Part shown: positions 3,026 to 28,712 of the stretch, in pieces
Layout of the letters: the number at the start of each line of letters is the position of its first letter
Numbering within the stretch: the stretch's first letter is position 1
Origin: Cloeon dipterum
Taxonomy: Eukaryota > Arthropoda > Insecta > Ephemeroptera > Baetidae
Length of the DNA stretch: 64,000 nt
Reading direction: 5' to 3'
Assembly: GCF_949628265.1 (NCBI RefSeq)
Contig: NC_088788.1
Location: 1,364,001-1,428,000 of the forward strand
The notes under the pieces: generated by a model
What the model was told of the DNA's origin: nothing
The model's database searches: none
The model's input: the letters and a program-made list of their open reading frames with translations, nothing else
Translations under genes and position numbers: made by a program

Positions 3026-3450
3026 GTTGATTTTTTTCATATCCTGAAAAGGTTGTAGGTCAAAAGCCGAGATCATATTTTGCGACCCTTTCCGAGAATT
3101 CGATTTTTCATGCTTTAATTTTTTTAGGCTTACATTCAAATTGGAGCTCGTAGAATTCTGTGCAAATAAAACAAGTTTTCTGAATGGCAGTTTCGTGGCA
3201 ATCAAAGTTTAAAGTTTTGAAATTGCTTCGAATCCGTTCTCCCGAGCATTTAATTTAATTCGAAAATGTGCCCGTCATTTTAAAATAATCGATTTTCCGT
3301 GTTCTGTTTACTTTAACGATCGATATTGAACCTCCGAAGGTTGATTCCGAGCCTCAGGCGTTTACCCTGAGGGTCAGATTGCGAAAAAATGCCCAAAATT
3401 GTCAAGTTTGGTGTCGTTTCACTGGGTTCACAGTTTAAATTTTGTTATAT
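2990..3450 (+). repeat. Dispersed repeat family C, long copy
   Basis: The segment runs from 'tgaaaaggttgtaggtcaa' to 'tcaagtttggtgtcgtttca'. The complementary sequence is found at about 28205-28620. Partial copies occur at about 20905-20990 and 40900-41250, and a weaker relative near 58980-59170. The motif 'ccctgagggtcagattgc' is well conserved. It has no coding content and no clear terminal repeats. Confidence 0.55.
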
Positions 3451-4084
3451 TATTTTTTTTTTTAAATTTTGCAATTCAAATGAACGAATTATCGTGCATT
3501 AAAATCTTCCTTATTTGCTGAAACAGGTTGTTAAACTCTTTCATCGGAGCTGTCGTTGACTCGAATAATAACTATCGGTTGATGACTTTAGATTATACTA
3601 TTTAAAAGCATAAACAAACGGAATCAAAGCTAACAAATCCGCAACAAGTTTATTCAAAGCTTTTCAAACAGTATAAGATAAAAGGTGCAAATACAAACAC
3701 TGCGCAGCTTTGTTTACACTTCAATGTTTGTTCTACATATAATCGCATCAGTGACGACACAATACGTATAATGAATGATTGAACCCGCTATTTGCTTGTT
3801 GATTACTGAATTGCTCGACCGACCAATGGGCTTTACACTCGAATTAAAGACACACGAGCTGTGGAGCGACGACCTTTTTTGACTACGCGCGCGAGACCAA
3901 CGCATCGACCGATTACGCATGTAATCTGCGGGGTTGATGACCCTTTATCACACACTCAGCCGTGCTCCAAAGTCGAAACAATAACCTCCTATTAACAGCC
4001 TGCACGCGTATAAAATGCGAATTGAAATAGTGTAAAACGAACGCCCACTGCCGAATTCTAAAAATTGAGTATTTGAGCACCAAG
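3451..4084. other. Intergenic stretch, no feature recognised
   Basis: AT-rich sequence. The short frame at 3714-3920 on the minus strand is arginine- and serine-rich with no family resemblance. I see nothing I can support. Confidence 0.4.
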
Positions 4085-4410
4085 TTGCAATTAGTTTTGG
4101 TTCTTTCTGGTCAGAAAGTCAATATGGCGTCGAAAATTATAGTTATTCGCCAATTTTGAAGCTGCGCGGTAATTTTTTGCGCATCTTAAGCATGCGCAGT
4201 ATGTTCAAATCGCTTCTTAATCTCACAGGGAGGCTGAAACGCATCACTGCGCATGCGTGACCAAAATTAAAACCTTCTGCGCAGTCGCAATTCCCACCGG
4301 GGTCCGGATTGCGATCTATGTTGGTTCCCGTCGGTCAGAATTTAATGAAATAATGGAGGCCAATCAGAAGCGTCGAAAAAGAGGCGTGCCGACCTAATAA
4401 TTTAATTCCC
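4085..4410 (-). repeat. Dispersed repeat family D (inverted relative to copy in carrier intron 2)
   Basis: About 320 bp match, in reverse complement, the segment at 32935-33215 inside intron 2 of the phosphate carrier gene. Shared landmarks are 'tgcgcatgcttaagatgcg', 'tggtcacgcatgcgcag', 'cctccattat' and 'ttgacgcttctgattggc'. It is GC-richer than its surroundings and holds several NRF1-like palindromes (GCGCATGCGC type). It is probably a non-autonomous element. Confidence 0.6.
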
Positions 4411-5834
4411 GCGCATTTTGTTGCATTTCCTTTAGCCTGATGTGTCATATTAACGGTCGATTCGCCAATTTCCGGGCTAATCAGCAGTTTGTAAAAAAAT
4501 ATTCATTGTGCTGATAAATTTTCATGATTTTCCCGCCGTATTTTACCAAAATCTATCTCTCAACTGTTATTGACGTATTGTAATTTCCATAATGTCTGTA
4601 AAATGGACCTAAATTATATTTTTAAAAGAGTCACATTAAATGTGGTTTAAAAGAACGTTTTTTTTCTCGGTGCTCAAAACATATTTTTAAAGAGAAGTCC
4701 TTTTTTCCGGTATAAAAAAGACCTATTTGTGGCTAGGGAATAACCTATTATCCTTTTGAGACGCCCAAGGGATCACCGCCACAGCCTGCGTGGTGCCAAA
4801 ATAACCTGCCGCGCGGTAAGTTTATTATTAATGATCGCGCTCCCCCCGTGAAACTTTCTTTCTTCTCTTGTCTTCCCTTCGCACTTTTGTTCAAAAAGGT
4901 GCAAAAGCGGCAGTTTATAATCATAAAAAAGAGCGCGAACTCGGAGCCTGGTCCGAGATGACAGGTTTTTTTATGGCGACTCGCGAGAGTAAGTGCTAAT
5001 ATAATATATAAAAAGGTCGTTTTGTTTGTGTTCGGGGAGCAAGTGCTGCGAGAGGGCCAAGACGCAGGCACATTATATGTGTACGCCTTTCGCTCGCTCT
5101 CGCTCGCGCACACGGTCGTCGACCTGCATATATGCCTCCACTTTTCGGAGAGAGAGAGAGATAATAAACGCTTCGAAAACTGCCAAAATCGCTTCGAATT
5201 AGCTAGTAGACGAAATTAAAAGCCACGCCATTTCTTTCATGGCTGCGCGCGTTTTTTCAGTTTCCTTTTCATGCAGCGCACATATGGATTTAATTGGCGA
5301 CAATGTATATTTTATGAAACAATAAAATAAGTTCCGCCGATGTCAGCTGATGAATGCCACTCCATTTAAAGCGAGCGTGCATTGCACAAAGCGCGTTCAT
5401 TCATGAGAAGCCGAGTTATCACTTCTTTTCTCAGGCGGCATTGACGAGTGACCCTGACTTTGGATTATTATTATTATTGTCCATTTTTCAATAACTATAC
5501 AATTTCTAAGGAGCGCTTTTAGCAGGTGATTTTCGGACAATTCTATTTTAACTGACTTGCCGGAACACCTTTGACAGTACATCGACGTGTGTGGCCGTCA
5601 AGTAATGCGCTTTTTTCGTCAGACGCGAAAACAAGTTTTCGAGAATTTGATATATTAAAAAATGCTCAAACTTCTTAACGTCTAATGTGTTTGCAAGTGT
5701 GCATAGTTAAAGTTATATTCTACACATTACAAAAAAATACAGAAAATACGTAGAATTTTACGGTGAGTCTGAAAAAGTTTAGTTTTTAACTGTACGACCC
5801 ATAGAAGCCGAGTTATTAATTTTTGAAGAGTAAA
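4411..5834. other. Intergenic stretch, no gene recognised
   Basis: Mixed AT-rich and CpG-containing sequence with a short GA microsatellite near 5150-5162. Frames such as 4748-5113 (minus) and 5022-5219 (plus) overlap each other and look non-coding. No structural RNA was recognised. Confidence 0.4.
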
Positions 5835-6600
5835 CAATGCGATTTGTGACATTTCAAACTTTTGTTTTCGAGGCCTAGGCGGGTCCCAATGGGCCAGATG
5901 GAGCTAATTTGGGTACCAATCGATGCCCCTTGGTAAAGCACGTCAGTCCGAGTGGGGTTTTTAAAAATCGGATCATTATTCGAATTTTTATGAATTTTTT
6001 TCGACCGATTTTCCGAAAAAGTCTAAAAAATTGGTTTTATTTTATTTAAATTCGGCCGTTTGTCTGATTATTCACCACGAACCCTCATTGGACAGGTGTT
6101 TGATTGGGCTATTACCAGGAATACCCTAGCGACCTTTTTCAGGGTACCCCGACCTAAGATCCGCTCCCAGGCCGGTTTTTTTATGCTTTTCAGAACTTTT
6201 TCGAGCACATTTAGCGATGAATACCCTTACCTGTCACTGATTTTGGTACAAATCGATGCCCCTTGGTGTGGTGCGTCCGCCCGTGTTCGAATTTTAAAAA
6301 TCGGACCATTTTTCGAATTTTTACGAATTTTTTGGCACATTTTTTTAAAATTTTCCAAAAAAATGGTTTTATTTTTATTTAAATTCGGCCGTTTGTCCGA
6401 TTGTCGACCACGACCCCTCATTGGACAGGTCGTAGATTGGACCATTACTCTAATGACCTTTTTCAGGGAACCCCGACCTGAGATCCGCTCCCAGGTCGTT
6501 TTTTAATGCTTTTTCCGTTCTTCCGAGCACATTTCGCGATACTCATTGACAATTTTTCGTCCTTGCCTGTCACCGACCTTTCTCAGGTCAGCGGCGGGGG
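5835..6600 (+). repeat. Dispersed repeat family B, two tandem partial units
   Basis: Two head-to-tail copies (about 5915-6230 and 6235-6560) share, in order, 'accaatcgatgccccttgg', a 'cggaccatttttcgaattt' segment, 'aaattcggccgtttgtc', 'cgacccctcattggacagg', 'cgacctttttcagggta' and 'cgacctgagatccgctccc'. Other copies lie at 8576-8935, 36738-37545, 42535-43065 (minus), 57420-57985 (minus) and 61080-61500. The 148-codon frame 6060-6506 is repeat sequence and should not be treated as a gene. Confidence 0.65.
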
Positions 6601-7405
6601 TGGACAGGTGAGGAAAATCTGCCTCAAACACTCAAAAATTTAAGTTTTCCCATTAATTTTATTTATTTTTAACTAACTATTAAATTTTAAGGGTGCAAAG
6701 GGGTGAAAAAGGATATTTCAAACCATTATCAGGTTCTTGACATTGCGAAAATCCGCAAACGCGTGCAAGTAATAACGAATCCAATCAAATGTGGAATTGA
6801 ATTTCCGATTGAATATCTGGCTAATAATCACGCGGCGGCAATTTGTTCTCGCGCGCTCGGCGCAGCATTGAACTTGAACTCGTGTGTGTGTGTGCTAAAG
6901 TGGCAGGCGTGAATGAGACTTGGCTGCAGCCAGCACACGTAAAGAGAAGAAGCCTGCTGCTCACTAGGTTAAAGGGCGATGCCCTTGCTCAGGTTCTCTC
7001 GCGCGCCTGTTCCCACCTCCGCCCAACGTGAGGCTGCTGCACGGCTCACGGCTGAGAGCTCGTCGCTCGCTCGTTTTCTGCCACACCGAAATTCGGATCC
7101 TTTTTTGCCCCCACTACGCTCGAGAATTTAGGTCAGGGGTCGATAAACCTCGCGCGAAAAATGGTGGTGGCCCGGCAAGACCAGAAAAGTGTGTGCGGAT
7201 CGTCTTTTTCCTACTTCATTTTTGCTCGCGCGGCAGCAACACCGAATAAAATGCTTATCACCACTTGACGCAACAACAATATTCCTCAAGATGTCAAATT
7301 AATTATTGAAACATCAAATTGTCGGATTGAGGATTAAAAATGTGTTTTATTTCGTGGAGCAATCATATTTTTATTTTATTTTTTTTTAAAAAGGGGGATT
7401 ATGAT
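6601..7405. other. Intergenic stretch, no gene recognised
   Basis: CpG-containing sequence at 6820-7240 has several overlapping short frames but no recognisable domain or paired splice signals. It could be regulatory; nothing more specific can be supported. Confidence 0.35.
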
Positions 7406-8216
7406 GTTTATAATAGAGCGTATTCAAGAAAGGTTTTTCTGTTCCTGTCCTGACCTGTTCCGGGAAAAAAATTTCCTGTCCTGTCCTGTTCCTGTTCAAA
7501 AATTGGATTTCCGGTCCTGTCCTGTTCCTGTTTTTTCCTGTTTTTATTTTCTCAAATTTAATTCCAATTTACAAAATGGTCTTCTAATTCTTCCATATTA
7601 ATATGTATACCTGTTTTTTGTTTGCTTTTAATTATTTGAAACTTACATTTGACAGATTTTCTAAGTGTTTAAATTTTGATCGAGTATATAATTTCTAATT
7701 CATCTAATTCCCCTTTATGAACAAAACGGAAAAAATAATATGCACCCCGCACAGAATTTAGTATCCAACAAAAATTATCACAAAAAGTGCTTAAAATGAA
7801 AAAGAATTGCAGAAAACCCCTAAAAAATGTTATTTTTGATACAGTTGATAGTTTCCCTAAAACGCTTGTTTTTCAAACACCGCTGACTGTAATTAAAGAG
7901 TTGTGCATTTTAATTAAAGCTTTAGAGCAAAATTGTAAACGTCGTGGATAATTTTTAGGTTTTTTTGGAAAAATATTTATAGTTACATGAAAGAAAGTAA
8001 ACATTGTAAGGCAGTATCAAAATGAAAAGTAATGCTGTCTGTAAATGAGGTATATTTGATTTAAAATAGACCAAGAATGGAATTGTTTTGAAACAAAATT
8101 CTTGTCTTGTCCTGTTCCTGAAAAATATTTTCCTGTCCTGCCGGAATTCCAGGAAAAAGCAGGAATTCTTGTTTCCTGTTTCAATTTCCTGTCTTGGAAT
8201 ACGCTCTAGTTTATAA
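7406..8216. mobile_element. Non-autonomous hAT-like DNA transposon with 8-bp target duplication
   Basis: A 795-bp element at 7414-8208 is bounded by inverted ends (TAGAGCGTATTC at the left; GAATACGCTCTA at the right). It is flanked by a perfect 8-bp direct duplication GTTTATAA (7406-7413 and 8209-8216). The sub-terminal regions are rich in 'ttcctgtcctgttcctg' repeats on both sides in opposite orientation. An 8-bp duplication and ends of the YARNG type are typical of the hAT superfamily. There is no transposase frame, so the element is a non-autonomous derivative. A diverged relative of its right end lies at about 47770-47908. Confidence 0.85.
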
Positions 8217-8575
8217 ACATACAAATTTCAAGAAATGTTGAAATAAATAGTTGCATAATTGTTTTTACTTTTTATAAATTGGGTAATTGCTAAAAAGCTT
8301 TTAATTTGTGAGGAGGAGGGTATGTTCAGTTTAAAAAATATATTGCGTTCACGATAAACATAATCTCCCCAGAATTGATTAGTCTCGCGACCAGAGGGAA
8401 TAAAATAAAAATTTTCCGGTATTTTACTGTTCGTCTCGCGCTCTTGATTTGATTTATGCATTGGAGAGTTATCAAATAATGCTGCATAATAAACATTTCC
8501 CTGCAACAATCGATTAAAGATTAATAAAATAGCAGAAAACCGTGTTCAATTATTTATAAAAAAAAAACTGCATTT
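8217..8575. other. Short intergenic stretch, nothing recognised
   Basis: AT-rich sequence between the hAT-like element and a family B repeat. A 93-codon minus-strand frame (8228-8509) lacks any recognisable feature. Confidence 0.4.
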
Positions 8576-8935
8576 TGGTATGAGTTTTTGGGGTCCAGTC
8601 GGAGATATATGGGCCGGAGGGCGCCGATTTTGTCACCAATCGACGCCCCTTGGTGAGGCGCGTTTGCCCGTGTGCGGTTTTTCAAAATCAGACCATTTTT
8701 AGAATTTTTACGAATTTTTTTCGTCATATTTTTCAAAATTTCCCAAATAAAAAATGGTTTTATTTTTATTTAAATTCGGCCGTTTGTCCCATCATTGACC
8801 ACGACCCCTCATTAGACAGGTCTTTAATCGGGATTTTTACCTGTAGTACCCTAACGACCTTTTTCAGGGTTCCCCTACCTGAGATCTGCGCCCAAGCCGG
8901 CTTTTAATGATTTTTTAGTACTTTCTAGCGCGTAA
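8576..8935 (+). repeat. Dispersed repeat family B copy
   Basis: A single copy in plus orientation, with the 'accaatcgacgccccttgg' start, the 'aaattcggccgtttgtc' middle and the 'cgacctttttcaggg' end phrases of the family. Terminal inverted repeats are not obvious. Confidence 0.65.
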
Positions 8936-11284
8936 GATGAATAAAAAAGCAGAAATTGTAGTCAATTATTAAATTAATGAGCCTACTGCGCTTATATTTC
9001 TGCAATCATGGGGAGAAATTTGATTGTGAAGAAAAATCCCCAATCACAAAATTAAAGGATGTCGTAAAAATCCCAAAATTTGAATTTTGATGCCAATTAA
9101 TTATTTATCACATTATCATTGAACCCTCCTCGTTCAGAGTTAACAAAAAAATTTATATCACCTTCATAATTAAATTTGTATATCCCCAAAAGAGTAATTG
9201 AAGTGTTAAACAGGAATAAAACCCTTAAATAGAATTTCGATCTGATCTTCGCGTTCGTTGTGACCATGAAGATCAGGTTAGCAACAGCCCAGCAAGAAAT
9301 TCGAATATTATCCACCCTATAATGAGATCGGGCTGTATACAGAAGCATGTAATATCATCCGGATAAAAGGACACCCTTCTTGCTGGGTGGCCAAACAAAT
9401 TTTGGTTAAGTACCGCGCAGCATCAAATTTGATAGCAGAGCGTGAAAACAAGCACAAAAGTAACCATTTAAAAATCATCCTTGTCCTTCTTAAGTGCAAG
9501 AGAGCTTTTGCAGTGCTTGGGTCGTATTCATATACCCGCGGTTTCTCCCTATAGCACGAATCTCGATCATTCACCTGAGTTCATCACCCACAAAGACCCG
9601 AAGACCCGAATTAATTCGTCATGCAGCTTTTCCATCCCGACCGTCAATCACTCCTTGGAGGGCTCTTATCATCCCTGGCTACTTTGTCGCTAATGGCAAA
9701 GCCAATAAGGGATCAGTTTCACCCCCCTTTTCCCTTGGCTTAATATATAATATAATATAATGGTTTATTAAATTAAAATTATTTGACAGAAGATAAATTG
9801 GACACTTTGATTCTTAAATTCAACTATAGGGATGCAAAAATTATTTTTCCCCAAAAGTAATGAGGTGCAATTTGCAATCGGCGGTGCGATTCACGCAAAC
9901 TGACGAATTGATATAGAGAAGCTACGTCGTGTTTTTTCATCTCAACACGTCAAAAGCAAAGAGAACACCAAAATTCAACATATTAATTTTTTATAAAATT
10001 TTAACAGACAACATTAAAAACAAAAACAATTAGTTTAAAAAAATTAAAGACCGCTTTAAAATGTTTCTCTCGTGTAAATTAGGCTGGTGGAGATTTTTAA
10101 AGAACAAAAAATCCACGTTTATTCAAAAACAAGTAAAATCCCAGAGTTATGAAACGCTGTCTTTCAAGTTAAATGCATGATTAATAAATATTAGAGGGGC
10201 CAGACAGATAAAGGTCCATCATCAGGTGATAACGTAGCAGTCTATTATCTAAACGTCTATAGTGTTACGTAATTAATTTGTTAAACATATTTAAATTAAA
10301 TTTTAAAAGGGAACGAAAAAAGATTATTTCTTTTTGCTACAATTCTTTAGAGTTTGATGAGAGCTTATGATGAAATCTGTAGCGGTACAACAACGCGGTA
10401 CTGCTTTTTGTTAAGAAGCCAACAATTGTCGGCGGGTGTTTGCATTATTGTTTAACAGCAGAAAGATGATTTTAAAATAATGATTTAGTTTTCGTCCGTC
10501 AGCCACACGGTGCTGACGTGGTTCGTTTAAAGTGGAATGATACTGGGCAACAATTGAAAATGATTTAAATTGTTGGATGCCTTAAACAATTGACTGATAA
10601 ACAATTTGTTCAACAATTTGCAATAATAAAAAATGACCATACAATAAAAATTCAAATTTTGCCAATTTTCTCCAAAATTTTGAGTGCTTGAACATATTTT
10701 CTTGACACATTTTGATTCGTCTCGTCGAGGTCTGTCCAACGGTGTGTGCCACTTATTGGGGAAGCTCTTGGTTTTGAAATTAAATCGGATTTCAAGTAAG
10801 GAGACAGCCATTACCATTTGAAAACCACGCTAACTTTCCAGCCGATTTTCTTAAAAAATTACAGTGCTGCTTAGGTCAATTTAGGCTTTAACTGAATCCT
10901 AAGGGATGAGTTTATGCATTGGCAACAAGCATTTTCCAGGATTTTCCAGTATCATTCCTCTTTAAACAAAAGAATTTGTAACTCATTATTGTAAACCATT
11001 TCAGTTCTAGTATTTGATTAAGTATCCGATCGGATTTCCAATTATTTACACGTGTTATTGGTAATTACATATTATACGATTGTGGAACAATCGGCGCGAA
11101 TTCATCTGAAATTTATTTCTGCCACGAGCACGAGGCTGCATAAATTTGCTCCACGCCGCGCGCACCATTGCAACCATAATAGTAAATTAAAACCCATTCT
11201 GCAGAGCGAAGCGAACCTTTATCTTGAATTTATTCCAGAGCGCGATAGAGATATAGGTGTGAGGAGTTATAATGCGCGGGTGGT
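8936..11284. other. Intergenic stretch, no gene recognised
   Basis: AT-rich sequence with short simple repeats such as the 'taatataatataa' tract near 9740-9762. Frames at 9317-9760 on both strands overlap and have no protein-like conservation that I can see. No RNA gene was recognised. Confidence 0.35.
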
Positions 11285-12640
11285 TCTTCTCTCTTCTCGC
11301 CAAGACCAAGGCTAAACTTGCACGAGCTCGTACACGCGTCACGTGGCGCAAATTCAATTTCAAATCGATTCAACTTTCAGCTTTTTACAACGTCAAGAGC
11401 CAGAGAAAAATTGAGGACTGAAGGAAGAATCCAGAGCGTCATTTTCATGCACGTATTTTGTGAATTTTAAATTAGTATAATATTTAAATATTGTTGCAAC
11501 GCATTTTTAATTAGTTTAAGAAATTCTGAAAAGGTTATTGCAAGAGGAATCGGGAAAATGTGGTCAAGCGCTGGAAATTTAGGAAAAAAGGTCCTTTTTA
11601 TTATTGCATCCAACAAATTAAATAATTTTCCACGGTTTTCAACTTCATTAAATTTTTTAACTGCTATATTTACACCCCCCGCCTCACTACCTTCCAAACA
11701 AAACGATTTTTTTTTAATTTTAATCCAGTGAATTAATATTTAAATTGTTGCAACGCATTTTTAATTAGTTTAAGAAATTCTGAAAAGGTTAATGCCACAA
11801 AATTTTAGAAAAATGGCGAGAGGACTTGAAAATGCTGTTTTATTTCCCTTAAAAAGAGTTTCCCTAAGGTCTGAAGGACCAGAGGAATCGTGAAGATTAG
11901 CACAAGAGATGGAATTTTTGGAAAAAAAATAATTTTTTATTGCATCCAAAAAATCCGATTTTCAACTTGATTAAAATTATTTATTTGACACCGCCAGCCG
12001 CACTTCAAACTTTTTTGAATTAAAGAATTTTCACGCTTTTTAAATTTCTTAAAAACATAACAATTAATTTCTTTGACAACTTGCTCATTTTCGTTTTCTT
12101 CTCGCCAAGACCTAGGCTGAAATTGCACAAGCTCGTACATGTGTCTCGTCTGAGGGAGAAGAATCGAGAGCGTCACATTCATGCACGTAGATAGGCAACC
12201 TTCCACACCTCAAACGTCAAAGCAGTATGCCTATTTTCCAAACAAATCGTCTTTTAAAATTTTGTGAAATTTAATTCAGTAAATTAAAATTTAAACTGTT
12301 GCAACGCATTTTTAATTGAGTAAAAAATTCTGAAAAGGTAAACGCAACAAATTTTTAGAAAAATGGCGAGAGAATTAGAAATCCTGTGTTTATTTCCCTT
12401 TAAAAGAGTTTCCCTAAGGTTACAAGGACCAGAGGAATCGTGAAGATGAGCTCAAGAGATGGAATTTTTTGAAAAAATCATTTTTTTATTGCATCCAACA
12501 AATCAAATAATTTTCAACTTGATTAAATTAATTAACTGATAATTACAACTCCAGCCGCATTAAAAATGATTTCAAATTCAAGAAATTTCACCCCGTTTTT
12601 AAATTTATCTAAAATAAAACGATTTTTGTGACAACTGGCT
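11285..12640 (+). repeat. Tandemly triplicated block upstream of the tal-type gene
   Basis: The phrase 'ttgttgcaacgcattttta' followed by 'ttctgaaaaggt' starts at about 11485, 11745 and 12297. The second and third copies also share a 'tttccctaaggt...gaccagaggaatcgtgaaga' segment and a 'ttttattgcatcca' tail. A linked phrase 'cttctcgccaagacc' with 'agctcgtac' occurs at about 11290 and 12100. This points to stepwise local tandem duplication just upstream of the small-peptide gene. No coding content is seen. Confidence 0.6.
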
Positions 12641-12865
12641 CATTTTCTTGGATATTTTTTTTTGCTGCTCACTCTTCCTGCTGTGATCCCCCCGCTCCTC
12701 TCTCATCCCATGTCCAGCAATATTATTTTTCTCTCTATTCACATGGTATATGTATGTGTTATCCCTAGAGAAAAAGGAGGAAGACACCAAACGAAGCGAT
12801 ATTCAACAAATTCTAAGGTGAGCATTAAAGGCCTCCCCTCCCCTTTCCCCCCCTTTGCCCGCGGA

Positions 12866-12906
12866 GAGAGCATAAAACCATCACGCACTCGGCTACAGCA
12901 CACTAT
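12866..12906 (+). promoter_or_regulatory. Candidate core promoter of the tal-type gene
   Basis: An ATAAAA box lies at 12872-12877, about 100 bp upstream of the first small ORF. Transcription could start some 25-30 bp further on, around 12900 ('gctacagcacact'). There is no ATG between this point and the first ORF. The TATA-like box and spacing are visible; the start site itself is inferred. Confidence 0.4.
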
Positions 12907-12979
12907 CTACTCGAGCTCGCTTTGGACCTGAAGTCGCCTCTGCAGCTCTGCTCTCCACTCACACTCGTACTTTCGCGAC

Positions 12980-13033
12980 ATGAATATTGATCCTGTCACC
13001 TTTCTGGACCCCACCGGACTTTACATCCATTAA
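12980..13033 (+). CDS. tal: tal/mlpt small ORF 1: 17-aa LDPTGLY peptide
   Basis: An ATG in good context (ACATGA, with purines nearby) opens a 17-codon frame reading MNIDPVTFLDPTGLYIH and ending in TAA. The heptapeptide LDPTGLY (residues 9-15) is the hallmark of tarsal-less/mille-pattes/polished-rice peptides. In flies these short cytoplasmic peptides trigger proteasome-dependent processing of the transcription factor Shavenbaby; in beetles they are needed for segmentation. This is the first ATG of the inferred transcript. It is followed after 59 nt by the next small ORF, and no ATG lies between them. The tiny length is normal for the family. Recognition rests on the motif and the polycistronic arrangement together. 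Confidence 0.9.
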   Translation: MNIDPVTFLDPTGLYIH

Positions 13034-13092
13034 GTCCTTCGCCAGAAGCTGCTTTTTTCTCCTCTCGCCGCAAAAAAATAATAATCTACAAG

Positions 13093-13194
13093 ATGGACTA
13101 TATTCGCGGAGACGCAACTGGTGCCTGCAACAAAGATCTCAAGGACACCCGCGAAGCAACCGGGCAACCTTTGGACCCAACTGGCAAGTACTAA
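13093..13194 (+). CDS. tal: tal/mlpt small ORF 2: 33-aa peptide ending LDPTGKY
   Basis: This 33-codon frame starts in a strong context (AAGATGG) and ends PLDPTGKY followed by TAA, so the hallmark heptapeptide LDPTGKY sits at the extreme C terminus (residues 27-33). Two shorter echoes of the core, DATG at residues 7-10 and EATG at residues 21-24, precede it and could be relics of ancestral repeated motifs. Type-A tal ORFs with one or two heptapeptides are known in other insects. Translation presumably follows re-initiation or leaky scanning after ORF 1. A 43-nt spacer without ATG separates it from ORF 3. Confidence 0.9.
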   Translation: MDYIRGDATGACNKDLKDTREATGQPLDPTGKY

Positions 13195-13237
13195 CTTGCC
13201 ACCCGTCCTCAGCCAGAAAAGAAAAAAAATCAACAAG

Positions 13238-13414
13238 ATGGACCTTTCCTTGGACGAACTGGCGTCATTTAGACTCGCCACTCGTCCTAGGCGCGTCCTC
13301 AGCCTCAAAAGATTCATGGACTCAGACGGCCCTGCCGAAAAGCCGCCACCGCCTCCAAGTCTGCCTCCGGAACGCAGAAATGGGGCGTGCTGCTGCCGGT
13401 TACAACCCTCCTAG
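13238..13414 (+). CDS. tal: tal/mlpt small ORF 3: 58-aa putative type-B peptide
   Basis: A 58-codon frame starts in a strong context (AAGATGG) as the third successive ATG on the transcript. It begins MDLSLDELASFR, has a basic stretch (RLATRPRR, LSLKR), a proline run (residues 36-40) and ends with a CCC cluster (residues 51-53). It lacks LDPTG. tal loci of other insects carry a longer, unrelated 'type B' ORF after the LDPTG peptides, and position and length fit that class; I cannot confirm homology by alignment. The N-terminal DLSLDEL resembles the UAP56-binding motif of mRNA-export factors, which may be chance. No ATG follows before the exon's apparent splice donor at 13452. Confidence 0.65.
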   Translation: MDLSLDELASFRLATRPRRVLSLKRFMDSDGPAEKPPPPPSLPPERRNGACCCRLQPS

Positions 13415-13451
13415 AAGCCACACCTCGTGCCATACCACCACCTCCGCAAAG

Positions 13452-16400
13452 GTAAATATATTTATTTATTTTTTGCCCCTTTAAAATTTATATCCCAGAG
13501 GTTATTCACCCAAATTTAATTTCTCTGCGCCCGAGAGAGTATTTGACCTTTGATTGAGACGAGGGAACACAATTCGACGCTCAGCTGGTAAAATTGGCGT
13601 GCGAAACGAGAGGGGAAACGAGAGTGAAAGGTGGAGCACTCTTGAGAATTGCAATATATGCGCTGGGAACTCGCGGCTATCGAGACTCGGCGGGCGCTGG
13701 GGCCATTGCCTTTTCGCGAGTTTATATATACACGTATATTATATAGAGAGAGAGCCACGCCGGCTCCTGACGCGCGAGCGCGCGCTCTCGCTCGCCGTCT
13801 TTGTAAAATTAATTAAAAAATAATAAATTTTCGGTTTTGTTTATCAGATAATTACTTTTTCCATAATTCCCGGAGTCAATGCCACGCCGGCGAAAATCAG
13901 CACGGATTTATTTTTTCGCGATTAGATTTCGCACTGCACTCACGCGATCGAGTGCACCGAGTCACGGGTGGCTGGGTTCAGCTGGCTGTGTGTGCACGGA
14001 AACCTTGGCTTTCGCGCTGCGGCGAACCACGTGGGGAGAGAGAGAGAGAGTAAGAGAGATCCCAGCTGATTCGGTTGACGGCCACGGAACGACCGAGTGC
14101 GCTCCGTAATCGGCTTTAAATAATAGGCAGCCAGCACTAACCACGTACACAACGCGCACGCATTCGAGGAGCTCCTTAAGCGGCGGCCGCCGCCGCCGCC
14201 GCTGCCGCCGCGGCAAAATGCCACGCACAAACTCACCGGAGCGAACGACAATTTCATCTCTGCACGCGAGACAATCAAATCAGACCGCGTGCAGAGTTTA
14301 TTTTAATCTTTAAATATTTTTTTAGCACCTCAAAATGATGCAAAAAATTAAAATTTCTAGAAATATCGAATTTAAAATTTTTAAAAATCACAAATTTGAA
14401 TTTTTAGATTAATTTGTCCTATTTTCTCCTTTTGAAAACCCTAAAAAATTAATACAAATCCGTAATTAATTAATTAATCCGTTTCGCCCGAGGTGATATT
14501 GATGATATTTCACAAAAATTCGTATTCGCGGTTGCCGAGCGCTTTATTTCTGTACGTGTTGTTCTCGCGAATAAATAAACGCGATCGACGTACGCGGCGC
14601 TGAATAAAACACACACACACGACCATTGAACCCGTCGTGTATGTTAGCTCGCTCTTCTCGTCATCTCGACCGACAAGCAACGTGATCGGCGCGCTGCTCC
14701 CTATTATTTCATTCCTTCCATTCGCTGATTTGTCCTTTCGCAAGCGGGCGGCCACCGAGCGGCCACAGGCGGCCACCCGGAGGTTGTTAAACTCGCGGCA
14801 ACGTGCTCGCCGCCGCTGTTGCCGCATTCCGAGATGTAATTACGGCCGCTTGATTGTTTTACGACGCTTCATTCATAAAAATGTAACCAAGTGCGAAAAG
14901 GAATTACGCGGAGAGAGCCACGCCCGCATTGACGACACGAAAATTATTATTTTTTGCTCCGGTTGCATCGCATTAACTGGGTCATTACAAACTGCTGGAC
15001 CCTCAAAGGCGCTCACTTTCACGCCGCACCATCAGATATTTGAGCTCGATTTGCATCGCTGTATTAATATTCGCTTGCGGCACCGACCTTGCCAACCTTT
15101 TTCCACTCGCGGCAAGCTTTAATAGACTCAATTTTCTTAACAATGCGCAGAATCCATTCTTTCAAAAATTTAATTCAACATTTTAATCGGTTTAAAGGGT
15201 AAATGGGGATGTTTGGGGTGTATTTATGTTAATTTATGAGGGTTTTAATATGGTAAAATTTTTTGCTGAAAGTGATTTTTTTCGTTTTTGAAATGCATAG
15301 GGTGGAAGGGGATGAGGGTTGGTCACCCCCAAAACCTTTTGGTTGTCTAGGTGACGTTAAGACAAGATGAACGGTGGGTAATTTTTAATATTCTGACAAT
15401 TAGAACCCAACATTTGGCGATTACAATGTTGGCAAAAAATTAAAAAATTGAAAAAAATTCATTTTTTGGTAATATTGCGAACGCTTAATCTCAGGTTTTA
15501 ATAGTTAGAATTTTAAAAACTACCCACTATTCGACTCGCCTTAACCTCCCCTAGATAGCCAAAGGGTTTTGGGGGTGTTCAACCCTCATCCCCTTCCACC
15601 CCATGCATTACAAAAACGATAAAAATCACTTTCATCAAAAACATTTTAATCACAACTCTCTTAAATTATTAAAAATGCACCCCCAAACTACCCCTTTTAA
15701 CCCTTTAAAAATAATAAATGGTTAAAAATAAATAACTAGTAATTTTATCACATTTTCACTACTGTCAATTTTCGCCGCGGAAGGAAATAAAAGGCTAATT
15801 GAGATTTTAGCAGCTAACCAGATCATCTCCTAAACCCATTGGCTATCAAGGGGAGGTTAAGACGAGTCGAATGGTGTGCCGTCCGTACAATACTGACGAC
15901 TCAATCCCAAGATTTGACGTTTACAATGTTGACAAATGACCCTAACAAATGAGAAGCATTTTCATTGTCCCCTAAAGTGTTGCCATCATCTCTACACAAT
16001 TCACGACAACTTATTTTAGAAAAAAGGTGAACAAATATATTTTGTGACACGCTGCTAACCGGCTGTATATTTTTTTCCCTTTTGAGCGTTGTTGCGGGTG
16101 GTCTTTGTGAGCTTTTGACAGCGCTAATAGAGCTAACTCTCGCGCCGCTGATTGTGAGCTTGTCTGGCGAGCAGGAAGACGCTTCTGATTTTCAATCTCG
16201 GCAGAGATTTCGATTGCCGGAAGCCAGCTTTTGTCATTTTTCGCATTCACCGTCCGTTTTGTGTTTTGTCATTGCGAAATTTGTGCGAAGGATGTGCCTG
16301 CAATTGTTATTCGCGAGCAATTATTACTGAATAAATATTACGGAAAGGGAAAACGGATACGCTTTTGAATGAAAATCACGCGTCGAAATCTCCCGGCTGC

Positions 16401-16845
16401 GCCGAGGCCGGGAGAAAGCGCGTAATTGTGGTAAAATATCTAGGCCGCGTGCGCGCCGCACACGAAAATCAGATACGCGAGGTCGAGAAGCAAAAGGGGA
16501 TTCTCGCACAAAAACTCAAAAGGCGGCACGGCACGCCCCGCGGCGCTTTTATCGCGACAGGTGTGTGTTTGTTTGGTGAGGAGCAAGAGCCGAAAAGTAA
16601 AGGCTAGACACACCATGATCGTTTTCGCGGTTTGTTGAACCCGCGGCGCGAGCGCGCACAAAATAACTATATCTTAACTGACCTACATTAACGTCAGCGC
16701 CCACCGAAAAAGAGCATAAAGGGAATTCCTTCTCAGGGGAGCTCATTTTATGGATAAAAAATGTTAAAATTTCGGATTTATTTGGTAAAATTCATTTTAA
16801 TTCTTTTTAAAACAGTTTTCCTGATTTTAAAATATTTCCCATCAA
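13452..16845. other. CpG-rich flank or intron of the tal-type gene, with family A repeats
   Basis: GC- and CpG-rich stretches at 13.55-14.28, 14.5-15.1 and 16.05-16.65 kb contrast with the AT-rich surroundings and contain many CACGTG-like and CG-rich motifs, an AG microsatellite (about 14035-14052) and a GCC-rich tract (14180-14215). Frames on both strands (for example the 161-codon plus frame 14637-15122) are typical of GC-rich non-coding DNA. Family A repeat units occupy about 15290-15900. I suspect cis-regulatory DNA but cannot assign elements. Confidence 0.35.
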
Positions 16846-16848
16846 TTC

Positions 16849-17228
16849 CGTGAAGTTTCTGAGCCCACCAATCGATCCCTCAGGGTCGAATTAGGTATAA
16901 GGGATGTTTTTTCCGGCCAAAAAGTCCAGCGCGACGTGCGAATTTTTTTCCCGCCAAAACGATATTAACGTATTAGCGAGGTCTGCGCATGCGTCAGAGC
17001 TGGCTGGATGTGACAAAGAATTAATTCGCACAGGCAGTCTCTCTGCAAGTGCTCAAACCAGCTCTGACGCATGCGCAATTCTCGCAAATCCGTTAACATC
17101 GTTTTGGCGGGAAAAAAAGTTCGCAAGTCGCTCTGGACGTTTTTCTCGGAAAAAACATCCTCTATACCTAATTCGACCCTGAGGAATCGATTGGTGGGCT
17201 CAGAAACTTTGTCCAAGACCGTCTTTAA
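16849..17228. mobile_element. Foldback MITE family F, copy 1
   Basis: Outer inverted ends ('gaagtttctgagcccacca' and 'tggtgggctcagaaacttt') enclose a second, inner pair of inverted arms. Those arms contain 'ttcccgccaaaac' / 'gttttggcgggaa' and 'tgcgcatgcgtcagagctgg' / its complement. The right end continues to 'gaccgtctttaa'. There is no coding capacity. The whole element can fold into one long hairpin. Confidence 0.8.
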
Positions 17229-19235
17229 ATAAAAAAAGCAGCGGAAATGCATTTATTTTGCGTGTCTGCGGCGAAGTGGGTCAAGCGCGTCGGCCTTGCG
17301 TATTTTTCTGGGTCAAAAAGGCGCCAAAACGATGCGCGAATCGTGCTAGCTGCAGCTGCACGTGTGTGTTAATTGATACGCGATCTCGGCGGCGCGGCTT
17401 ACGGAGTGCAAGGATGCACTTTTCGCGCATAATAATTAGCGGCTCGGCACGTGCAGCGGGCTCGAAATTTTGTACCGCGACGATGAATAGTCACAATTTC
17501 CCTTTACATGCGATGAGTAATCATGTTTGCACGCCGCTTTCACCTCCTGAATGAATGGGATTTCCGAGTGCAGTTTATAAATGAAAGCCGGAAGTCGTCG
17601 GTGATATAGTTTACAAATTGCTGGAATTATTCGAATTATTGCGTTTTGTTTCATTTCGATTCATGCTCGATTATCTGACTCGGCCTCCGCGCCTTTACTT
17701 ATTTAATTGTGCAGCACATACGCTCGGCAAGGTCGAATTCCACACACACTCTCACACTTTTACACGCCTACTTCCATTTCGTATATTTATATACCCTGAC
17801 CGCCTGACTAATCCGATTTTTTCCTTTTGTTGCAGAATTGACTCATTTTCGATTCGGAAGAACAACTTCAGGAGAGAGTCAACGATGTCCGGAGACGTAT
17901 TCATTTAGCTCTTAGCAGCGGGGGAGAAATTCGTGCGACGTGCAACACAAAAAGCTCTGGACGCTCGTCTGGAAATTAAAACGAGAGCTTTTTGTTTCGC
18001 ACATTCAGACGCCATCTTTGTTGTGCGCAGTGCGAACCAATTTTATCCTGCATATCTTGACCCCGCTGGTTTTAAGTTAACGTTACCACCATCTTGGCAC
18101 CGCAACAAGCAGCATCTACAATGTAGTATTAGATATATATTTATAAGGTAAAGGCGGTAACAAATTGCTTTTGTTTACTTACATCAAGGTGCTTAGCAGT
18201 TTACTCGTAATTAAATTCATGAAAATTGTAGGATCGCATCATCTGGTTATTTCTTAAGTTGTAATGTTAGACCCTGTGCATGTGTAATGTAGCACGCATA
18301 CATAAGTGCCAAAAATATTTACTACAATTAACGACAGTAATAACAACCTGGTGCAGTTTTACGTTTTGCTATCAATCAGAAACATGAATTAATTATGTAT
18401 TGCGTCCTTTTAGATTTAAGGAATCACAATGATTTTCATCGTCCATCACTATTTATTACTAAATAAAAAATAATAAAAATAAATTGGCTTTCGTTTTATT
18501 CCTACCACCAAATTCCTGTGAATATGAAATGAAAAATATTAAAAAATTTAATGCGGGGCACTGCTTTATTTGCCCATGAATAAAAAAGAGAGGAGAAAAT
18601 ACTTATCATTCTACAATAATTCATTTTGATTAACAAGACTTTTTATCGTCAAACGACACAGCCAGTAATTGCCGGCGTGTTCTTTTCAGTGTCGTACAAC
18701 AATAATTGTCTCACGACTCGCTTGCTGCTCGACCTGCTCTCTTTCTCTCTCTCAGCGCTTCCTCTCTTTTTGTTTCGTGGCACCGGAAGCCTGCTGCTTA
18801 TGCAACCCGCGGCTTCGAAAGGCGCCGAAGAATGCATAACCAGCGTGCGCGCCGACATAATATGCAAATAATATTCATATTTTTTTTCTCACGACGTTGA
18901 GTCGCGCAGCCGGTTACGTGTTTCCCCGAGAAAAGTAAAATGCAAACATACCTCGCATGTCTGCTGCATGAAATCGGTCGGTGGACGTGTGAAGCGCGGC
19001 GTATACACAATCAATGCTCGAAACAATGTGCGAATTATTTCTCGAAAACTCTCTGAATACCAATGTCGATTTGTATTTTGTACTCAGATCCGGTTATCGC
19101 CTCATAAAATTAAGGAAAGTAATTACTTGCAGAATTGTAGTGAGTTGGGGGTTTAATATTTGATTTTCTGGGCTTCAAACTATCATTTGCAATTTTAAAC
19201 CAAATTTTTCGTCTTTTCTTGGATTTTTCAAAATT
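17229..19235. other. Stretch with a candidate tal 3' exon, otherwise unassigned
   Basis: CpG-rich sequence to about 17.55 kb, then the candidate 3' exon at 17836-18480 described with the tal unit. Another CpG-containing patch lies at 18.7-19.0 kb. No other exon, RNA gene or repeat was recognised. Confidence 0.35.
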
Positions 19236-19239
19236 TGCT

Positions 19240-20110
19240 CAATTTTTGCCAATTTTGTAACCTCTGAATCTCGGATTCTAACTCTCAGAATTGCATAAAA
19301 TGCACACCGTTCAACTCGTCTTAATCTCTTCTAGATAACTAAAGGGTTTTGGGGGTGATCAACCCTCATCCCTCTCCACCCCATGCATTGAAATAACGGT
19401 AAAAATCACTATCATCAAAATTTTTATTCTTGTCATAGCTCTCTTAAATTAATAAATATACACCAAAAACTACCCCCTTTTACCCTTCAAACAGAGAAAA
19501 AAGGTTAAAAATTAGGAACTAGTAATTTTTATCAAATTTTCGTTATTGTCAATTTTTTTTGCGGAATTATAATGACGGATAATTGGGGTTGGAGGGTAAT
19601 CAAATCATCCCCTTAACCCATTGGCTGTCTAGGGGAGGTTGATACGAGTCGAATGGTGTGCAGTTTTTACAATTCTGATGGCTTAAACTCGAGTTTTCGC
19701 GATACAATGTTGACAAAAATTGTAAAATTTCATTTTTTGGTAATATTTCGAAGGCCTAATCTCGAGTTCTAAAAGTCAGAATTGTAAAAACTACCCACCG
19801 TTCATCTCGTCTCAACCTCTTCTAGATAGCCAAAGGGTTTTGAGGGTGATCATCCCTCATCCCCCTTCCACCCCGTGCTTTGAAATAACAATAAAATCGT
19901 TTTCAGCAAATTTATTCACAAATCAAAACTCTCTAAATTCAATAAAATCCATCCCAAATTCAATTGGCTATCTAGGGGAGGTTAAGGCGAGTCGAACGGT
20001 GTGTATTTTTCCCAATTCTGATGGCTCAAACCCGAGATTTAATGACTTAAATGTATAGGCAAAAATTAAAAAACATATTTTTCGCTAATATTTCCAAAGG
20101 CCTATAATCA
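19240..20110. repeat. Dispersed repeat family A, several units
   Basis: Multiple direct and inverted units carry the family phrases ('ctagataactaaagggttt', 'ggtgatcaaccctcatccc', 'ggctatctaggggaggtt'). They are arranged in near-tandem inverted order like the copies at 15.3-15.9 kb. There is no coding content. Confidence 0.6.
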
Positions 20111-22640
20111 TTTAGCTTGATTAGTCGGTTCGTAAATCATATTTATTTTACTAAGCAGTCAGTAACTTTTTATAAAATTACAAAAAAAAAATGTAATAAT
20201 AAAAAATCACTGCTGTTTTTTCGTGTTTAAATTAAAAAAATAACACGTTTGATGCAATAAATAAATAAAATTGACTCTCACGTGCAAAAAATAGCGCGGA
20301 AGTGCAATGAACTGATCGCCACGTGCGCGCGAGAGAGGTGCATTCTTTTTTTATCTCTTGTTTGGGTCATTTGAATTTCAATGAAGGGCGTATTTGGTGT
20401 ATTTTTTGTTCTGTTCCAACACCAAACATCTTGTACGAGGCTGAGAGCGCGAGTGGTTTTTTGTGTGTGTGTGTTGCTACGGCTTGGAGAGGAGAGAAAG
20501 AGATGATGCGGACGAAAATAAAAGGAGGAAATGAGATGCACCATCCAAATTTAATTGCCCCTTTGCCTCAAAGTTCGTTCAACTTTGTCCTAAACGCCAT
20601 TGAACTCGCGCTGCTCCGCGTCCAGAAAGAACACACACGTGCATGCACTTCAAATATCACACTGGATGCAGCATTTTTTTTATTCACTTTCGTCGCTGCA
20701 AGTAAACAAAATAAACATTCGGGCAGATGGAATGCACCACGCAGGTAATTGAGGAAGAGGAGAATAAGATTTTGAAAAATTATCACAAAGATTTTAAATA
20801 AAAATTGGAGGGATTTTTATTTTTAAATTAATTAATTGCGTAATTCATTTATTTTTGTATTTTTCAGGGTGTTATTTTTTGGTAAACAAATTTTCAGAAT
20901 GCAGTAGTGACATGGCCCTGAGGGTCAGATTGCAAAAAATGGCCAAAATTGTCAAGTTTGGTGTCGTTTCACTCGCTTTTGACCCATAAACTTTTTTTAT
21001 GAATATTTTTCATAGCAAAAAAATGGTTTTTGGAAAATTTTGCTTGCCAAAATTTACTTTTTAGACGATTTTAGATCTTAAATCTTAGAAAAAATAGTCA
21101 ATCGTCTAAAATTCACAGCCATAGACATAATAAATAATTTAAAATATTTATATTCCGCATAATATTTATTAAATTCTTTGTATTTTTCCCATCCAACCAT
21201 TTTTCCCACCACTTTTACATTTCGTGCAGACAGAAATTGTTGAGACGCAAGACATTCAGGCCACTTTTTACCCTTTGGTTTTTTTCTTCTTTCTTTTTTT
21301 AATTTGAACCCTTTGCGGGCAACAGGTGGTTGCATGAGAGAAGATATAGGGATGGGATAGATTGCCCCGTTTGCCGCGATGGGGTGTCAAATAAATAATA
21401 CGGTGTGTTAAGATAAAAATCTTATACTTTCGTTCCCAAGCGCGGCGCAACCCTTTATTTCGTGGCAGGAAATCGAATCAAGCATTGTTATCAACGCATC
21501 AAGCTGTTCGAGTTTCGCTGCGGCATTTTAATCGCCTGACGAGGGTTGCAAAGAAGGGTTATCAGGTGACGCAACAAACAAGGAAGAGAGTTTTCCCTCG
21601 GCTCATCAGACGCGCCTCCAGGAAGCGTCGGGAGAGCCGGGGAGCTGCGCCAGGTCGACGAACCAATCAGGAAAAATCGAGTAATTAAATTTATTTGAAT
21701 GAACGTGTGATTCCTGATGGCTTCCAAATGGTCTAATTGAACAAATTCTGGCAGCTTGGCGCATTTTTATATGAAGCCTGTCGTCAGGCGCCGGTAAAGT
21801 GGCTGCACACGCGAAAATAAATCAAATCTGTTATCATTTCAGGGCTGGCCTGACGTTTGGGTTCGATTTATTATAGTTATTACCTGTTCTGATGGTTTTG
21901 TCTGACCTCAGAAGTGACCCCCGCTGTGTTCCAACCGATCGAGCAATTGTTATTTCCTCAATTTTTGCTCAAAACTATGAAAAATCACCCGTTTTTAGAC
22001 ATTTGAGTCTGTTTGTCTCTCGAAAAATACAACTTTTGCTTCCCTGGATATTTCTAGCACACTCAGGTAAACATTAAGCTGTCAATTTTGTTATATTATT
22101 ATTAAATGGGAATCTTTTGTATGTAAGCTCTGACGTGACAGGATTATTTTCCCAGCTTGTATTCCTATTTCCTGACTATAATTGGTTATTTCGACAACTC
22201 TCTTTTACAAAATATACCTAAAAAATCAAAATAATGCTCAGAAAAAAATTGAAACATTGCAGACCATCAGAAATTAAATTTTAATTAATTTTTCAAATAG
22301 GTAATTTTAAAAATGCATTGTGATTTCTTCTGCAGCCTTACTTCATTTAACAGGATGCGATTGAAGTGGTTCGCAATACCTGATGACACATCGCAGCTGT
22401 TCTTTGATAAATTATAATGTTATACAGAAGTGGAGTCACCGCAGAGATCCAGATTTCCCTTTAGTTGCAGAAGAAAATGTCCTAAAAGGGTCATAAGGAA
22501 GCTAATTAATTGAATTAGTGGTGGATTTTCAGGGTAGAACCTGTGAAAATTTCTAAAAATATTTTTACATCGCTAAAAGCTGTGGAATTCTTTGTAAATT
22601 TGAAATTAAATCTTAAAAAATGAGTTAAAATGTTTTTTTC
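20111..22640. other. Intergenic stretch with a partial family C repeat
   Basis: A partial family C copy is at about 20905-20990 ('ccctgagggtcagattgc', 'tcaagtttggtgtcgtttca'). Frames at 20278-20786 on both strands overlap and look non-coding. Nothing else is supported. Confidence 0.4.
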
Positions 22641-22644
22641 TACT

Positions 22645-22985
22645 AAAAGACAGTCTTTGACGAAGCTTTTTAGCCCACCAATCGATTCCTGAGGGTCGAA
22701 TTAGGTTAAGAGAATGTTTTTTCCGTTAAAAAAGTGCAGCGCAACGCGCGAACTTTTTTCCCACCAAAACAATTTGAAATTCGAGAATTGCGCATGCGTG
22801 AGAGCTGGCTGGATGTGACAAAGAAGTCATTGGTGCAAGCGGTCTCTCTGCAAGTTCTCATTGAGGCTCTCACGCATGCGCACTTCTCGCATTTCAAATT
22901 GTTTTGGCGGGAAAAAAGATTCTTTGGTAACATATCCTATCCACTTCGACCCTCATGAGTGGAAGCTTCGTCAAAAACGTTTATT
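22645..22985. mobile_element. Foldback MITE family F, copy 2
   Basis: Left end 'aaaagacagtctttgacga', right end 'gaagcttcgtcaaaaacg'. Inner arms carry the paired 'cccgccaaaac' / 'gttttggcggg' and 'gcgcatgcgtgagagctgg' motifs. The right arm is slightly shortened compared with the 63.5-kb copy. Confidence 0.8.
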
Positions 22986-25900
22986 ATTGATTATTATCAA
23001 AAAGGGATTACTTAAAATTACGAAATTCTTACACTGATGGCATGTATTTTATTACTATGACATGTTAAATGAAAATAACGACGATAAAATTATTCGAATG
23101 TTCGAACAATCGAAAGCAACATCTTTTACAAAATTCTTATCAAACCAACAAATAAATAAAGATATTAAAAACAAATCGTAAACTGCATTAATTTTTTCCC
23201 CTAAACTCGCCTCTGCGGCTTTGGATGTGGACAGCTAGTAGGTGACGTAACACATTCAATATAATATAAGACTATGCGCCGCATTAGAATGGGCGACGGG
23301 TGTTTTGGTCGTGTGTCTCTTCACTTTTTTTGTTATTTATTCCATTTCTGAATCGCGACTCGTCGCTCATTAGAATGACCGGCAGGGCGTCGCGTGCGAG
23401 CAACATGCGCCGCGTCGACGAAAAAAAAGTGAAAACGCACGCAAATCAGCCAAGAAGCAATTTGCTGGGGAAGAATAAAACAATGCACAAAAGATGGAAA
23501 CGCGTGATGATTTATGCAGACAGTGTACTCATCATATTATACAAAACGTCATTCTCGTGCCAATTGAGACGTGTGGCCGGCGACCATTTTCAGCACTAAA
23601 AAATAAAAAATTCGGAATTTTGCAGGCTTTTCATCAGGGCGTTTTATCTTAGGTGAATGACCGAAATAACAGATAAGAAGCAGAAAAAGGTATATGCACA
23701 TTAATCAAGAAAAATCGTGAAAATAAATGTCCTAGAGAGAAGAGATCAGGAGATGATAAATGACGCTCCTCGCACTGATCGTGCGTGTTAAACACCAAAA
23801 GTGAATTCCGTTGTGCAATGTGCAAGAATGTTTTCTTCAATATAATTCAAGAAGATTATTTGCACTTTAACCTGCGAAATCGGCGAATTCATTTCATGCG
23901 AGAGGGTCGCTGACGGCCAGTTTTTCAGCAGCACAAAATAATCCATCATGAAATTGATTAAAGCAAGGAAATTTGAGTTTGTTTGTAAACTTGTAGAGCT
24001 GTGAGCGATTTCAACACGGTTTGTTTTGATTTAAAAAGTGAGAGTGAACGTCACCTCACCGCCCGTTCTTACAATTATTAGTTCTTATTGCTTGCCATGG
24101 AATAAATTCTGTTTAATTTTCTTTTTTGGTTTTGACATTTTGTTTAAGTGCAAATAATATTCAGCGATGAATTTGAAGGTCCAAGCCCAATTCCACTTTA
24201 TAAATCACAAAGAAGTTGAATTCCAAAAGCCTCATTCCTCAGAACTCGTTGAAAGCTGACAGCAGTATTCGTTAGGAATTAAGGAAAACACACGATTACG
24301 AGATAATATAATGCAACACACTCCGTTGCTTTTGCGTAAAAATATAAAGTGTTTTTTAGGAAATATATAAAAGGTGGCAACGCAATTTGTTTTGGGATTA
24401 ATAGAAAATAATTAATTTTATTTATACCGAATATGTTATTGGAAATACTGTCATAACCTGTCTCAACCCCAGTAGATTAAAAATTATTAAATCTTCTATT
24501 ATGTGAAATTATTTATTATTTATTAAAAAATGCCCTGAGATTTATTGCGCTGAGAGACCCAATTTTACGCGTGAAATAGTTCGGACATCTATCGATTCGT
24601 AAAATTGGATCACAAAATGTACTCATGAGATGAGCAGCACAATGCTTCAACTTGAGAGATGGTCACACAAATATATTCACTCATTACTTTCCAACAATGT
24701 GTCGATTAAATCTTCTTGTACGCACCCAAGCAGGTTACTTTTTAAACTCCAAATCCCTTTTCAATGATTTCAATTCTGAAATGCACCGAGCTGGACAATA
24801 AATCGTCTCAAAATACTCGAAGGATGTGCACGTTGGGTCGTTGAGCCGGCAGATCATCAGCATTAGGCACGGATATTCAGGTACCAGCCCGTACCAGCCG
24901 GCAAGCAGGCTATATAGGGGTTGATTTTTTTCTTTTTTTTGTGGCCCATTATTTATTGCGTCGGGGCATTATTATTATTTCAATGCCAGGGTGTGTTCTT
25001 TGGGAGGGGCGGCTAGCGAGGGATGCGCACTGCTTTTTGGCCTGTATACTCGACAGCAGCAGGTGCCTGAGAAGATTCGTCTCCCTTTTAAAGCTGAATC
25101 ACGAGGAGGGTTGATTCTTATTCCCATTGTGCAATCGGATCAAATTCCTCCCTTTTGCTTGGGTTTTTTTTTATCGGCGGGCGGGCGGGCAGGTGAATAA
25201 CGAATGGGAAAAAAACGCGGCCTGGAATGAGGAAGAAGATGCCTGTTGCTAAGGTATCACGGCGGCGGCGGTGGCTACCTTTTTTTACAACACTGGGCCA
25301 GAGAGAGAAGGAAGCCCCGCAGCGAGAGTTCAGAGCAGACGGGGCGGCATCATCGTTACCAAATTGTTTATTTTATGCGACCAAAATTGAGTGTTTATTT
25401 ATGGAGAGCGGTAGGAATAGATGATGATAATTAATAAAAAATAAGCAAATTTCCGTAATTTGGGTTTCGTGTAATTTCCACGTTCAATATTAACAAATTT
25501 CCGTTGACGGCAATGCAAAATAACTCGTAAAAAATTAATATTAAACCCTAACAAACCAATTTTTCGAATTTTACCGGTTACGCCCCCTTTTTTGGGCAAA
25601 GGAATTGCTTCCGGGGTGTGAAAAATTATGTAAATTTAACAGTGAGAAGATAAAAATAGTTATTTTGCGTCTTGAAAGTTATTTTTTATTTTTGCAAAAA
25701 TTGCAGATTTTCGAAAGGGGTGTGTGTTTGGCCTGATTAAAATTCAGCAGTTGAAATTAGCGTCAAAAACTGCCTAAATTCAGAAAGCTGATTAAATTTC
25801 CAGTTTTTTTCCTACTGAGCAAAATTTTCTCAAATTTACCATTTTCGCACAAAATCCGTCTGAAAATTTTAGCTGGCCGTTAAAGAACTTTTTAAAATAT

Positions 25901-27205: not shown

Positions 27206-27208
27206 TTA

Positions 27209-28620: not shown

Positions 28621-28712
28621 CCCTATACGCAGAATCTGGTTCGGTTCTTCGCGCTCGCTCGCCGTAGTCGTAAATTGTGCGTACTCACGTCGTGTTGTCA
28701 CCTTCTGGTTCT

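Follow-up and report, generated by a model that had tools for sequence, protein, structure and literature searches.

Layout of the small-ORF array

In the 64-kb window of the Cloeon dipterum genome analysed here (the whole stretch of DNA that begins above), three consecutive small open reading frames (ORFs) of 17, 33, and 58 codons were confirmed on the forward strand at positions 12980-13414, as the initial annotation had proposed (Table 1). Translation bore out its further statement that ORF1 contains LDPTGLY and ORF2 contains LDPTGKY; these ORFs and motifs are read directly from the DNA, and ORF3 has no LDPTG motif. The start coordinate given earlier for the gene, 12866, lies near a TATA-like box, and no ORF begins there. 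Comparison of the two motifs shows four base differences in the L, D, P, T, G, and Y codons, all of them synonymous; this pattern suggests selection, with the reservation that the same motif had served as the search criterion. The start context of ORF2 is CTACAAG-ATG-G, and the contexts of ORF2 and ORF3 are nearly identical (AATCTACAAG and AATCAACAAG, respectively, each before ATGG).

The spacers between the ORFs measure 59 and 43 nt and are free of ATGs, in agreement with the initial annotation, but this freedom from ATGs is not statistically unusual, because shuffled sequences were often equally low. Two ATGs occur in 12878-13237 versus means of 3.2 in Markov shuffles and 4.0 in base shuffles, and counts as low appeared in 1854/5000 and 1052/5000 versions, respectively. 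ATG scarcity, considered as a sign of designed spacers, was rejected as not significant.

Table 1. Features of the small-ORF array and its flanks (positions in the window)
Feature	Position	Strand	Basis
TATA-like box CATAAAA, candidate core promoter	12871-12877	+	consensus match only
ORF1, 17 aa, MNIDPVTFLDPTGLYIH	12980-13033	+	open reading frame
ORF1 canonical motif LDPTGLY	13004-13024	+	in frame with ATG
ORF2 cassette (leader, ORF2, trailer), one tandem-duplication member	13067-13222	+	repeat finder, alignment
ORF2, 33 aa, C-terminal end LDPTGKY	13093-13194	+	open reading frame
Degenerate motif repeat DATG(A) inside ORF2	13111-13122	+	read from translation
Degenerate motif repeat EATG(Q) inside ORF2	13153-13164	+	read from translation
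ORF2 canonical motif LDPTGKY	13171-13191	+	in frame with ATG
ORF3 cassette, shortened and diverged tandem copy of ORF2 cassette	13212-13312	+	collinear alignment
ORF3, 58 aa, N-terminus MDLSLDELASF	13238-13414	+	open reading frame
Splice-donor-like AGGTAAATA, possible intron start	13450-13458	+	consensus match only
ATTAAA	13812		consensus match only
AATAAA, candidate poly(A) signal	13822-13827	+	consensus match only

Transcript signals and surroundings

The TATA-like box reported earlier at about 100 bp upstream was found 103-109 nt before the first ATG, as a short consensus match. At the other end of the array, the donor-like sequence begins 36 nt past the end of the ORF3 stop codon. Another donor-like site, the strong AAG-GTGAGC, lies ahead of the TATA-like box, at 12815. 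Within ORF3, but in a different frame, an ATG at 13380 opens a reading frame that spans 13380-13484 and crosses the donor-like site at 13450. Either the 12815 site or the 13380 frame could be a sign of a more complex transcript, and an additional exon may lie upstream or downstream of the array. Sites resembling an ecdysone-response element (consensus with at most one mismatch) numbered two in the window versus 1.2 expected; this is the level of chance, at least two such sites having been present in 34/100 shuffles. A scan for bacterial promoters, which is uninformative for insect DNA, found nothing, and an Rfam search gave no match at the gathering score.

The gene seems to stand alone within 1-12800 and 13900-33300, an impression that comes from two upstream ORFs (121-420 and 6060-6503), neither of which matched a Pfam family. 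Downstream of the gene, four inverted repeats were found, including those at 15255-15646 (189-nt arms, 81%) and 16853-17209 (107-nt arms, 87%), which are perhaps small transposon remnants. Farther along, a mitochondrial carrier exon is present at 33380-33685 on the forward strand (Pfam Mito_carr, E-value 7e-17), and a series of C-type-lectin-like ORFs with a common FWTSG...FNFRWC...INW..GQPNN-like pattern, apparently a tandem array, occupies 37771-58317 on the reverse strand. When four of these ORFs were tested, all four matched Pfam Lectin_C, three of them over the cut-off.

Uniqueness of the motif pair in the genome

The genome searched comprises 190 Mb in 10 contigs, of which five contigs of 33-43 Mb sum to 187 Mb. 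The genome-wide DNA pattern was [L/F]DPTGxY, so that F was also allowed at the first position; it occurred at seven sites in the 190 Mb, and the reversed control pattern occurred at none. By direct observation, the motifs of ORF1 and ORF2 form the only close pair among these seven sites. The frames at the other five sites have 56 codons (L002, which looks like a WD-repeat exon), 203 codons (L007), and 45, 46, and 80 codons. In a search of the genome with the 587-bp region, in which very common words were skipped, the region matched once; a transposon or repeat family, considered as a candidate for this region, was rejected on the basis of this search. ORF2 was also single-copy in a protein search of the genome, and ORF3 had one weak second match (E-value 0.4).

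The initial annotation held that two LDPTG(x)Y motifs are unlikely to arise by chance, and the simulations agree with it. The reading that the two motifs are chance occurrences in non-coding DNA can appeal to the tiny size of each ORF and to the five single pattern sites elsewhere in the genome, but 300 first-order Markov simulations of the 64-kb window contained no site encoding LDPTGxY on either strand, seven random sites would be expected to give only 2.8e-5 same-strand pairs within 250 nt, and an in-frame ATG precedes the motif within the open frame in ORF1 and ORF2 and at 0/5 of the other sites. We therefore regard chance as an explanation with next to no probability. That the array is instead a dead or secondary copy, with a working tal gene elsewhere in the genome, is suggested by the decayed or displaced motifs in ORF2 and ORF3 described below. 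Against this stand the absence of any other LDPTGxY small ORF among the seven pattern sites, a search that a copy with an altered motif or in an assembly gap would escape, and the single-copy state of the DNA and of ORF2, with just the weak match of ORF3 besides; a dead copy is accordingly quite improbable.

Assignment to the tal/pri/mlpt family

At least two successive small ORFs with LDPTGxY lie on one strand, namely ORF1 and ORF2. For either motif peptide, the sole Pfam family listed at E-values up to 10 was PF22856 (Tal-1A_2A), with scores of 13.2 and 12.5 bits versus a cut-off of 27 for a model of 11 positions; the ORF1 query was extended by five upstream codons to meet the length limit. 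A profile search of the genome with PF22856 gave no match anywhere, the controls included. A PDB sequence search with ORF2 likewise gave nothing at E-values up to 10. An ungapped six-frame BLOSUM scan of the window found no convincing C-terminal GREETSSCRRRR peptide: the best listed in-frame score inside ORF3 was 11, and the best in the window was 31, with the top three near 29 kb in frames rich in charged residues. Near the array, the best match was an arginine-rich frame at 14164 on the forward strand (score 25, tied fourth in the window), which is situated in a GC-repeat stretch and whose open frame contains no ATG ahead of the match. A C-terminal peptide may instead be encoded by a spliced last exon.

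An arthropod host is indicated by the Pfam 7tm_6 odorant-receptor family, with five exon-level matches over the cut-off, two of them with internal stops; we take this family to be insect-specific. A search for COX1, as a guide to the species, gave a single fragment that contained stops and scored under the family cut-off. The genome also directly presents genes of the Ovo and UBR types. An Ovo-type zinc-finger exon at C2:18108929 ranked first among 186 zinc-finger matches, with 76% identity to an OVOL1-type query, and another at C2:18111391 had 64% identity. Six zf-UBR matches were present, and the strongest, at C5:28964187, reads CGLVW, a form that we take to be the UBR-box signature of Ubr3 and on which the label Ubr3 for this match depends; among the solved-structure matches, PRT6 stands nearest, followed by UBR1/UBR2, and no chain is named UBR3. 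Two neighbouring zf-UBR matches (L017 and L019) look like UBR1/2. Therefore, from the Ovo-type exons and the UBR boxes, the Shavenbaby/Ovo and Ubr3 partners appear to be present, and we infer their interaction. A pattern for the N-terminal stretch of Shavenbaby had no site genome-wide, and the stretch was absent from the ovo regions examined; an intron could split it. A further set of Ovo/Shavenbaby exons, more diverged and with altered zinc-finger residues, was observed at C2:6110569 and 6111929 (6110569-6112078; L014, L027, and L028), and this second copy may represent a duplicate of the Pri target that is decaying or has diverged.

Because the array holds the sole pair of LDPTGxY small ORFs among the seven sites, in an insect host that has Ovo and Ubr3-like genes, we consider it very probable that this locus is the insect's tal/pri/mlpt gene. 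The identity proposed in the initial annotation thus stands on the motif pair, its uniqueness in the genome, the host, and the partners, but its inclusion of ORF3 as an ORF of the family does not, since ORF3 is without the motif and is probably a diverged copy. A tal/pri/mlpt gene is a textbook case of a missed gene because its ORFs are tiny.

Decayed motifs and a probable cassette duplication

In ORF2, the intact LDPTGKY is preceded by two decayed motif-like units, DATGA and EATGQ; these had been overlooked in the initial annotation, as had the similarity between the ORF2 and ORF3 cassettes. Two [DE][AP]TG units within the first 26 residues of ORF2 were obtained in 5/100000 permutations, for a pattern that was chosen after the repeats had been seen. 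The repeat finder detected two repeats: one of 32 nt (81% identity) covers the starts of both ORF2 and ORF3, and one of 19 nt (89% identity) links the sequence that follows ORF2 to a segment inside ORF3. A collinear alignment of 13060-13225 with 13212-13315, using gap settings that were also chosen after the repeats had been seen, scored 73.2, a value reached by 0/3000 shuffles, versus 60.0 for the best alternative placement in the window (4874, both strands); a stricter alignment without the shared bases scored 61.0, with 2/3000 shuffles as high. At ordinary gap costs, 3/2000 shuffles were as high for the ORF2-ORF3 cassettes. The corresponding numbers were 40/2000 for ORF1-ORF2 and 419/2000 for ORF1-ORF3, so that a shared origin of the ORF1 cassette is not well shown.

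ORF3 starts inside the cassette copy, and the motif-derived stretch there falls in another frame. The alignment and the repeats therefore suggest that a copied ORF2 cassette is the probable origin of the first 25 codons of ORF3, with the reading frame shifted over the former motif. No source of the last 33 codons was detected. A local tandem duplication of one leader-ORF-trailer cassette would thus have enlarged the ORF2-ORF3 part of the array, after which ORF2 would have kept one intact and two decayed motifs, and the motif of the ORF3 cassette would have slipped out of frame.

Within the tal/pri/mlpt reading of the locus, we lean toward the view that ORF1 and ORF2 alone are functional, ORF3 being a remnant of the duplicated cassette that is either untranslated or neutrally translated. 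The divergence of the copy and the displacement of its motif are consistent with a remnant, as are the results of the searches with ORF3, in which no Pfam family was found at E-values up to 1, and about 5.8 billion proteins yielded one candidate with shared words and no match at E-values up to 1. The lack of a detected relative in that protein search also speaks against the converse view that ORF3 is a new translated peptide with its own role, derived from the duplication and change of frame of an LDPTG cassette. This second view, which we consider possible but doubtful, draws on the strong start context AATCAACAAG-ATG-G, almost identical to that of ORF2, on the 58 codons that stay open, and on the position of ORF3 in the array, where other insects have a longer last peptide (in the species described in PMC6124123); the first two of these points speak against a remnant. 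The same is true of the lineage-specific extra smORF described in this gene under the name smHemiptera (PMC7606980), and because this order-specific smORF is known in Hemiptera, ORF3 as an extra peptide has a precedent. The fuller proposal, that a frame change in a duplicated LDPTG cassette produced a new translated peptide of 58 aa that took the place of the ancestral last peptide in this lineage, is in our judgment unlikely; if it were true, the tal polycistron would be a birthplace of new microproteins from copies of old ones.

Proposed mechanism and significance

In Drosophila, the peptides are described as binding and activating the ligase Ubr3; Shavenbaby is consequently trimmed to a limited extent by the proteasome and changes from a repressor to an activator (PMC6428570 and PMC10857433). 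By transfer from Drosophila and Tribolium, a single putative mRNA starting near 12.9 kb would carry at least two translated small ORFs that share LDPTGxY, and their peptides would bind the E3 ligase Ubr3, letting it bind and ubiquitinate Shavenbaby/Ovo. Limited trimming by the proteasome would then convert Shavenbaby/Ovo from a repressor to an activator, with ecdysone as the presumed timer. We infer the transcription, translation, Ubr3 binding, and developmental role of the locus by analogy; that role would comprise epidermal differentiation, leg formation, and probably posterior segmentation.

As a further member of its family, the locus is mildly novel in the duplication of a cassette and the change of frame that can be seen behind ORF3. 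With two intact motif peptides only, the array helps to indicate how small a set of peptides may suffice for the Ubr3-Shavenbaby switch, and the visible duplication and decay of its cassettes help to show how a polycistronic message could gain new small ORFs.

Comparison with known tal/pri/mlpt genes

A search of the literature joining mille-pattes and mayfly found no paper, and we do not claim that the locus is unpublished in this species. The LDPTGxY motif has been reported from insects and crustaceans (PMC11475943). In Clogmia and other insects, including Tribolium, a variable number of N-terminal LDPTGXY peptides is followed by a longer last peptide (as described in PMC6124123), an arrangement like that of the present array. 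The last peptide in those insects has the consensus GREETSSCRRRR, to which ORF3 shows no convincing match, and the spacers described for Clogmia measure 111-348 nt, compared with 59 and 43 nt here (PMC6124123). The hemipteran mlpt gene is also alike in having a lineage-restricted extra ORF without the motif, smHemiptera, of about 80 aa (in the accounts of PMC7606980 and PMC11475943); ORF3, which is set beside it by description only, has 58 aa and is apparently derived from a motif cassette.

The tarsal-less/polished rice gene of Drosophila melanogaster, like this locus, holds several tiny LDPTGxY ORFs in one gene. Its RNA, described as an intron-less 1.5-kb mRNA set apart from neighbouring genes (PMC8435736), differs from the array reported here, in which a donor-like site follows the last ORF. 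The Drosophila gene is described as encoding four motif peptides of 11-32 aa (PMC3136413 and PMC11475943), compared with two, of 17 and 33 aa, in the present array. Among the former, Pep4 has 32 aa and carries the motif twice (PMC3136413); ORF2, with 33 aa, resembles it, although the extra motifs in ORF2 have decayed, unlike those in Drosophila.
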